A DNA stretch of 10,397 bases from Chloroflexota bacterium (GTDB taxonomy: Bacteria; Chloroflexota; Dehalococcoidia; Dehalococcoidales; RBG-16-60-22), in the NCBI GenBank assembly GCA_025358235.1, contig JANYKH010000012.1, positions 1 through 10,397 of the forward strand, given 5' to 3'. Shown here one piece after another: positions 1,610 to 4,137 of this stretch. Position 1 is the first letter of the stretch; each line of letters starts with the position of its first letter. The notes below the pieces were generated by a model. That model was given only the letters and a program-made list of their open reading frames with translations. It was not told where the DNA came from and did no database searches. Position numbers and translations under genes: made by a program.

Positions 1610-1635
1610 AAAAAAGAAAGGGGGCTCGCGCCCCC
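1610..1635 (-). terminator. Rho-independent terminator of the 46-codon small gene
   Basis: On the minus strand, GGGGGC (1635-1630), loop GCGA (1629-1626) and GCCCCC (1625-1620) form a perfect six-pair GC stem closed by a GNRA tetraloop. TTTCTTTTTT (1619-1610) follows at once. This is a canonical intrinsic terminator, 17 bases after the stop codon at 1653-1655. It separates the small gene from the PH-domain gene downstream. Confidence 0.8.
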
Positions 1636-1652
1636 CTCCACCCGGACCAGGA

Positions 1653-1793
1653 CTATTTTTTCTTCTTTTTGTCAGCGGCGGCTTTCTCAGCTTTAAGCTT
1701 CTTCAGTTTTTCTTCGTCTTCCTTGATTCGCCGATCAAGTTCCTCATCAACTTCGGGTCTAACCGGACCCCAACTAATCGGTCCTCACCCCAT
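1653..1793 (-). pseudogene. Lysine-rich small gene, 46 codons, with in-frame TGA at codon 3
   Basis: On the minus strand the ATG at 1793-1791 follows a strong SD, GGGAGG (1803-1798), at four bases. Codon 2 is GGG and codon 3 is TGA (1787-1785). The frame is then open for 43 codons to TAG (1655-1653). The encoded peptide has a Gly/Trp/Pro part (GPISWGPVRPEVDEELDRR), a charged helix rich in Glu and Lys, and a KKKKK end. Codons 3-5 (TGA GGA CCG) resemble codons 8-10 (TGG GGT CCG), so an ancestral Trp at codon 3, changed by one G-to-A mutation, is a reasonable inference. A promoter and a terminator flank the frame, which argues for a genuine transcription unit. There is no in-frame ATG, GTG or TTG after the TGA. 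I do not recognise the family. Alternatives are selenocysteine or read-through at TGA, an ATT start at codon 6, or disruption by a repeat, because the segment around the SD and ATG resembles the repeat at 4103-4124. Confidence 0.55.
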
Positions 1794-1843
1794 AAATCCT
1801 CCCTTTTGGCGCGCTGCGCCGGCTGATATTTCTATTTAGCCTC

Positions 1844-1873
1844 ATGATAGTGGAATAAAATAAGGCATGTCAA
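1844..1873 (-). promoter_or_regulatory. Sigma70-type promoter for the small gene
   Basis: On the minus strand a perfect TTGACA (1873-1868) is separated by 18 bases from TATCAT (1849-1844). The predicted start site near 1837 gives a leader of about 44 bases. The leader includes a five-pair hairpin (1808-1820) just upstream of the SD at 1803-1798. The promoter lies directly in front of the small frame and of nothing else. Confidence 0.6.
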
Positions 1874-4102: not shown

Positions 4103-4137
4103 CCCCTCACCTTAATCCTCTCCCTCAGGGGGAGAGG
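4103..4137. repeat. Dispersed repeat copy 2 with hairpin
   Basis: Bases 4103-4121 match the motif at 960-978 with two C/T differences. Here the element continues into a GC-rich hairpin, CCTCTCCC (4117-4124) with GGGAGAGG (4130-4137) and a five-base loop. It lies in the gap between convergent ruvA and ilvC. It could act as a transcription barrier, but no T-run follows. Confidence 0.55.

Follow-up and report, generated by a model that had tools for sequence, protein, structure and literature searches.

Organization of the locus

The window analysed here, a stretch of 10,397 nucleotides from a Chloroflexota bacterium, carries on its minus strand a small open frame equipped with the usual gene signals and interrupted by a TGA at its third codon. 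Re-reading of the strand bears out the layout given in the original prediction, in which a promoter-like site, a GGGAGG, ATG GGG TGA, 43 codons, TAG and a terminator follow one another. The features are:

1844..1873, minus strand: promoter-like sequence TTGACA-N18-TATCAT, matching 11 of 12 consensus bases
1798..1803, minus strand: GGGAGG ribosome binding site, 4 nt 5' of the ATG, read from the sequence
1653..1793, minus strand: 46-codon open frame whose third codon is TGA and whose stop is TAG, from translation and codon-usage statistics
1785..1787, minus strand: TGA, codon 3, a probable selenocysteine (Sec) codon, judged by the hairpin and the Sec machinery
1755..1770, minus strand: SECIS-like hairpin GGGUC-CGGUUA-GACCC, its loop starting 19 nt after the UGA, from folding and motif comparison
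1616..1639, minus strand: intrinsic terminator with a 10-pair stem, a GCGA loop and a T tail, from sequence analysis

The frame, read from 1793 to 1653, translates as Met-Gly, the stop at codon 3, GPISWGPVRPEVDEELDRRIKEDEEKLKKLKAEKAAADKKKKK and the terminal stop, which is the TAG at 1655-1653; 43 open codons follow the TGA. The peptide has no Cys, and neither a UxxC motif nor any other known redox motif is present. From the in-frame TAA on the upstream side to codon 3, the ATG at 1793 is the sole in-frame ATG, GTG or TTG, and none of these three codons occurs in frame 3' of codon 3 within the 46-codon frame. Because the UGA comes as early as codon 3 and is followed by no standard start, gene callers would miss even a shortened form of the gene. 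The promoter match alone is not rare, since two promoter-like sites (at least 9 of 12 bases) are found in the 1.3 kb region and shuffled sequences yield 1.4 ± 1.2.

Family scans identify the neighbours in the window as a PH-domain protein downstream, YebC, RuvC, RuvA, ketol-acid reductoisomerase and CysE. The PH-domain gene, whose bPH_4 score of 21.8 bits is slightly under the cut-off of 22.9, starts at 1596 on the same strand as the 46-codon frame, and the terminator sits between the two. Elsewhere in the window, two similar stretches, CCCCTCACCYTAAYCCTCT, lie at 960-978, where the cysE frame ends, and at 4103-4121, after ruvA; they look like a dispersed repeat.

Selenocysteine machinery of the genome

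The genome to which the window belongs encodes SelA (439 bits; TIGR00474 534 bits), an adjoining SelB (TIGR00475 332 bits, cut-off 242) and a tRNA-Sec with anticodon TCA (76.6 bits, gathering score 47), on which ARAGORN agrees. Its SelD carries one in-frame TGA. With SelA, SelB, a tRNA-Sec (UCA) and a TGA-bearing SelD all in place, the genome should therefore decode UGA as selenocysteine, and UGA should have a second meaning in it besides that of an ordinary stop. A genome-wide reading of UGA as Trp is rejected, because TGA terminates 4 of the 10 window genes that were scored. Across the order, SelD is found at E values up to 1e-50 in 96 of 156 genomes.

The hairpin behind codon 3 and the SelD signal

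The sequence behind codon 3 has the form TGA-N14-GGGUC-CGGUUA-GACCC, which can also be read as TGA-N15-GGTCCGG-TTA-GACC. SelD (TIGR00476) of the same genome likewise has an in-frame TGA and then a GGTCCGG..GACC hairpin, in the same frame relative to the UGA. The two signals differ in that the SelD loop has 5 nt and starts 16 nt after the UGA, whereas that of the peptide gene has 6 nt and starts after 19 nt, a spacing that is 3 nt longer. The proteins themselves are different: the SelD enzyme has about 350 residues, and the 46-residue peptide shows no similarity to it.

The TGA region was extracted from 27 of 30 fetched SelD loci, that of the own genome included; the other three are L106 and L119, with TGA, and L117, with TGC. 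The pattern TGA-N12-GGTCCGG-NN-GACC is present in 22 of the 27 and likewise in L106 and L119, which makes 24 of 29. The signal in these 24 is a GGUC/GACC stem with a CGGNN loop, and the five other extracted SelDs differ from it. The GGTCCGG partly reflects the protein motif GPGDL, but GGT and CCG are almost invariant at the codon level as well. In the SelD of L117 (genome G148), where TGC (Cys) replaces TGA, the hairpin region has GGGCC for GGTCC, a form also seen in three TGA-bearing SelDs (L092, L102 and L114).

The scan of the own genome covered 325 kb in 72 loci (60 of 329 contigs and single loci) and 9267 TGAs. GGTCCGG-N1to4-GACC occurs three times in this sequence, in SelD, in the peptide gene and in L121. 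The last of these, on the minus strand at 1377 of L121 (own contig C2), is a SECIS-like motif, GGTCCGGGTAGACC, with no TGA in the preceding 40 nt. A five-pair stem with a CGG loop at a stem spacing of 9-16 follows 57 of the 9267 TGAs, and the stem is of the GGTC type in two of the 57, namely SelD and the peptide gene; like the CGGTNA loop discussed below, the GGTC stem is a narrow pattern that was set after the genes sharing it had been seen.

A second control is provided by an OsmC-like gene of a relative (genome G005, L231:16459-16920), which scores 41.2 bits against PF02566 (cut-off 27.5) and has an in-frame TGA followed by a CUGGCUA/UGGCCAG stem. It was chosen by eye from a long list of candidates in sampled contigs of relatives, most of which look like chance frames. 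Its loop, CGGUGA, starts 19 nt after the UGA, as does the CGGUUA loop of the peptide gene; the stem sequence is another one, the protein has 153 residues and Cys homologs, and the peptide is unrelated to it. A search of solved structures gave no match for this protein, and 2023 homologs of it were found. Among the best 120 of the 2023, 17 are long, and these have Cys (8) or Trp (8) at the site or are unmatched by the motif (1). The other 103 of the best 120 have their first residue directly behind the site (MMGTL in 82, MGTLA in 21), as would be expected of Sec genes truncated by gene callers. Judged by these homologs, the OsmC-like gene is a convincing Sec gene. We think that in the rows with Trp a TGA was translated with the wrong code; reading codon 3 as TGG falls into the same trap. 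The family seems to be widely misannotated. Among 39,863 TGAs, from the own sequence and samples of three relatives, a spacer of N13-15, five pairs and a CGGTNA loop follow four; exactly N14 is found in two, the peptide gene and the OsmC-like gene. Since this pattern was set after both genes had been seen, the number shows how alike they are and should not be taken as a clean test.

Specificity of the hairpin

The limits published for bacterial SECIS elements (PMC13188914) are a loop of 3-9 nt, a stem of 4-16, a G in the first two loop bases, a distance of 16-37 nt from the UGA and an MFE of at most -7.5. The hairpin of the peptide gene lies within the limits that this source gives, with a loop of 6 nt, a stem of 5 pairs, a G at loop position 2 and a spacing of 19. 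The MFE of the hairpin region is -11.4 to -16.1 kcal/mol over 40-55 nt, and the fold changes when the region is limited to 35 nt. Passing these loose limits proves little, because 298 of 1027 own TGAs (29%) also pass them, as do 585 of 1000 sequences obtained by shuffling the 55 nt; they were rejected as evidence on their own.

A stricter filter requires a CGG loop starting 15-20 nt after the codon and at least five pairs, three of them G-C. It is passed by 9 of 8487 TGAs of the own genome, SelD and the peptide gene included, compared with 26 of 8964 TGG, 12 of 7738 TGC, 16 of 8473 TCA and 17 of 8233 GGA control codons. The corresponding counts in three relatives are 83 of 31,362 for TGA, 127 of 40,691 for TGG, 81 of 29,395 for TGC, 84 of 31,362 for TCA and 96 of 36,057 for GGA. 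Such hairpins are thus rare, and a general enrichment behind TGA is rejected, since they are no commoner there than behind the control codons; with few Sec genes, no enrichment is expected. The most conservative control recoded the peptide with synonymous codons 20,000 times, and 1678 of these recodings (8%) also form a CGG-loop hairpin. The presence of this hairpin was not selected for, because the locus was originally picked for the TGA at codon 3 and not for what follows it.

A wider scan examined 50,151 TGAs, overlapping loci included, for frames that have a start codon and continue for 15 or more codons downstream; candidates sharing identical downstream DNA were counted once. Its 42 candidates consist of 21 SelDs, the OsmC-like gene, the peptide gene and 19 others, which are probably due to chance; in 8 of the 19 the TGA also lies within 10 codons of a start. 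A frame in genome G005 (L226:10098, plus strand) is of the same type as the peptide gene, though probably also a product of chance: it begins with ATG-TGA, reads MUTFKLVRRGWQGKSRKLT, has a purine-rich stretch on its 5' side and a 7-pair hairpin with a CGGCGA loop at 15 nt.

Distribution of the peptide and the reading of codon 3

No homolog of the peptide was found among the approximately 5.8 billion proteins of the protein database search, no copy was found in plasmids and phages, and no NCBIfam family matches the peptide (P0001) at cut-off. Copies were found neither in 60 relatives (8 weak matches, E up to 1), nor in 30 other genomes of the family, where one of the earlier weak matches recurs (G027), nor in 155 other genomes of the order, with L031 as an extra weak match, nor in 392 other, evenly sampled genomes of the class, with two unsupported frames; these genome sets overlap. 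Judged by eye, the weak matches L002, L004, L005, L007 and L008 are presumably coils of the ATP synthase b-subunit, and we take L006 to be an RNase Y-like coil and L009 a ribosomal L7/L12-like frame. As homologs, L031 was rejected as an ATP synthase-like coil, L003 as a frame of 29 residues lacking any hallmark of a small gene, and the class-level matches L057 (a 38-residue frame with one stop) and L058 as frames without gene support. The pattern WGP-x2-WGPV-x-P, with TGG or TGA, occurs at 18 loci in contigs, none of which has a Lys/Glu tail.

The DNA from 1600 to 1900 has short matches only in the 60 relatives, the best of which (E 1.1e-4) covers 31 nt in the terminator. The PH-domain neighbour is matched in 11 of the 60 relatives and yebC in 24 of 30 relatives of the family; a contig search with the PH protein confirmed nothing. 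Two homologs of the PH-domain gene, L015 (G030) and L017 (G023), have one in-frame TAA each. When the first 30 residues of the peptide were aligned locally to 36 neighbour loci (L011-L022 and L033-L056), the scores were no better than those of shuffled queries. Among the genomes searched, the genus is represented by the window's genome alone, whose YebC is only 51-58% identical to the 24 family YebCs found; a genus-specific gene would thus look like an orphan. The original prediction took the lack of a similar frame in related genomes to speak against it, and no such frame was found in the genomes searched. Missing frames do not refute a genus-specific gene, because the searched genomes include no second one of this genus.

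The same searches bear on a fresh inactivation, in which a single base change turned a Trp codon at position 3 into TGA, or on an assembly error with the same outcome. The original prediction leaned towards TGG because codons 3-5 resemble codons 8-10. The resemblance is real, but it does not prove that a TGG has been lost, and no TGG copy is found in the genomes searched. This leaning was probably wrong. The contig, 10.4 kb long, comes from a genome in 329 contigs that is 76% complete, so a base error could have occurred. Either event would leave a SECIS hairpin of the lineage's type, placed at a fitting distance from the TGA, unexplained; even taken together, these two readings are unlikely.

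Coding signal of the frame

Scored with the codon usage of the window itself, trained on 2994 codons from its other genes, codons 4-46 rank highest of the six frames. When these codons were shuffled 5000 times with dinucleotides preserved, 5 shuffles reach the score and 441 are open, and none does both. This result argues against a non-protein origin, in which promoter and terminator would delimit a short RNA and its purine-rich sequence would be open by accident. Purine-rich DNA readily yields Lys/Glu-rich frames, promoter-like matches are expected by chance and no search made returned a homolog, all of which such an origin would accommodate. The window holds no Rfam family at gathering score, with weak matches only, and folding of the 227-nt transcript gives nothing out of the ordinary, its stability being unexceptional (z -0.67). 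A non-protein origin is improbable, more so than the loss of a Trp codon.

The UGA might also be avoided, either by a start at the ATT of codon 6 or by near-cognate reading with tRNA-Trp. The sequence GAGG-ACCG-ATT, with GAGG 4 nt before the ATT, and the lack of a standard start further on fit such a bypass. Against this, ATT starts are rare, a good ribosome site and an ATG are present upstream, and UGA is a real stop in the scored genes of the window, so that bypass of the codon is quite improbable. Least probable of all is a selenium-sensing leader in which the Sec supply at codon 3 sets terminator read-through into the PH-domain gene at 1596: the terminator does separate the peptide from the gene that follows it in the same orientation, but the 46 codons have a protein-like tail and their own stop ahead of the terminator, and we know of no selenium link for the PH gene.

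A probable, very small selenoprotein

The locus is probably an intact orphan gene for a 46-residue selenoprotein with Sec at position 3. Programmed decoding of the UGA, one of the options in the original prediction, is favoured in the form of selenocysteine insertion, because the genome has the Sec machinery and the hairpin is SECIS-like and of the type found in the lineage. Slightly less firmly, the peptide is likely to represent a previously undescribed selenoprotein family, free-standing with 46 residues, Sec at position 3 and no Cys, and so far seen in one genome only.

The gene is predicted to be transcribed as a monocistronic RNA of about 220 nt, starting just past the promoter-like site that ends at 1844 and ending near 1616. 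Translation would be initiated at the ATG at 1793. With the UGA of codon 3 in the A site, Sec-tRNA(Sec) would be brought in by SelB attached to the hairpin at 1770-1755. Translation on to the TAG would then give the product MGUGPISWGPVRPEVDEELDRRIKEDEEKLKKLKAEKAAADKKKKK, where U is Sec. The frame with its coding statistics, the hairpin, the Sec genes of the genome and the hairpin class shared with SelD and the OsmC-like gene are observed, whereas the insertion of Sec at codon 3 and the expression of the gene are inferred. As a general rule, a Met that precedes Gly is removed. The mature N-terminus would accordingly be Gly-Sec-Gly-Pro, a flexible tip bearing a selenol, and the tip, (G)UGPISWGP, would sit on a charged, probably helical stalk with a lysine tail. 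A role as a small redox or metal-binding partner or accessory protein is our guess.

The lineage's form of the SECIS element, with a CGG loop at 16-19 nt as derived from SelD and the OsmC-like gene, singles out a gene that would otherwise be dismissed as a fragment carrying a nonsense mutation. If the interpretation is true, counts of selenoproteins in uncultured bacteria are too low for the smallest ones, and a Sec placed only two residues behind the start would provide a test of how near to initiation SelB can work.

Comparison with known selenoproteins

In Dehalogenimonas alkenigignens, PMC4918011 reports selC and a SelB-type factor, together with UGA codons inside the frames of SelD and formate dehydrogenase, and Sec-containing formate dehydrogenases are described for deep-sea Chloroflexi in PMC5736913; both are assumed to be near this lineage. 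A comparable peptide was not found in literature searches, which is weak evidence of its absence. Three new hypothetical selenoproteins without known domains are described in the deep-Sep paper (PMC12013277), and these have Cys homologs. The Sargasso Sea survey, as described in PMC1088965, required at least two Cys homologs per selenoprotein; because a survey of this type pairs the UGA with Cys in homologs, orphan and very short selenoproteins would escape it.

Table 1 of PMC13188914, in which protein sizes are not given, lists no motif that equals GUGP together with the sequence that follows it in the peptide. Several families in the same table resemble the peptide in having Gly or Pro beside Sec: the HesB-like proteins with UxGP, the hypothetical protein DG with GUxG, the HUGP/GUXX-star family and the selenobacteriocins with SGUG.
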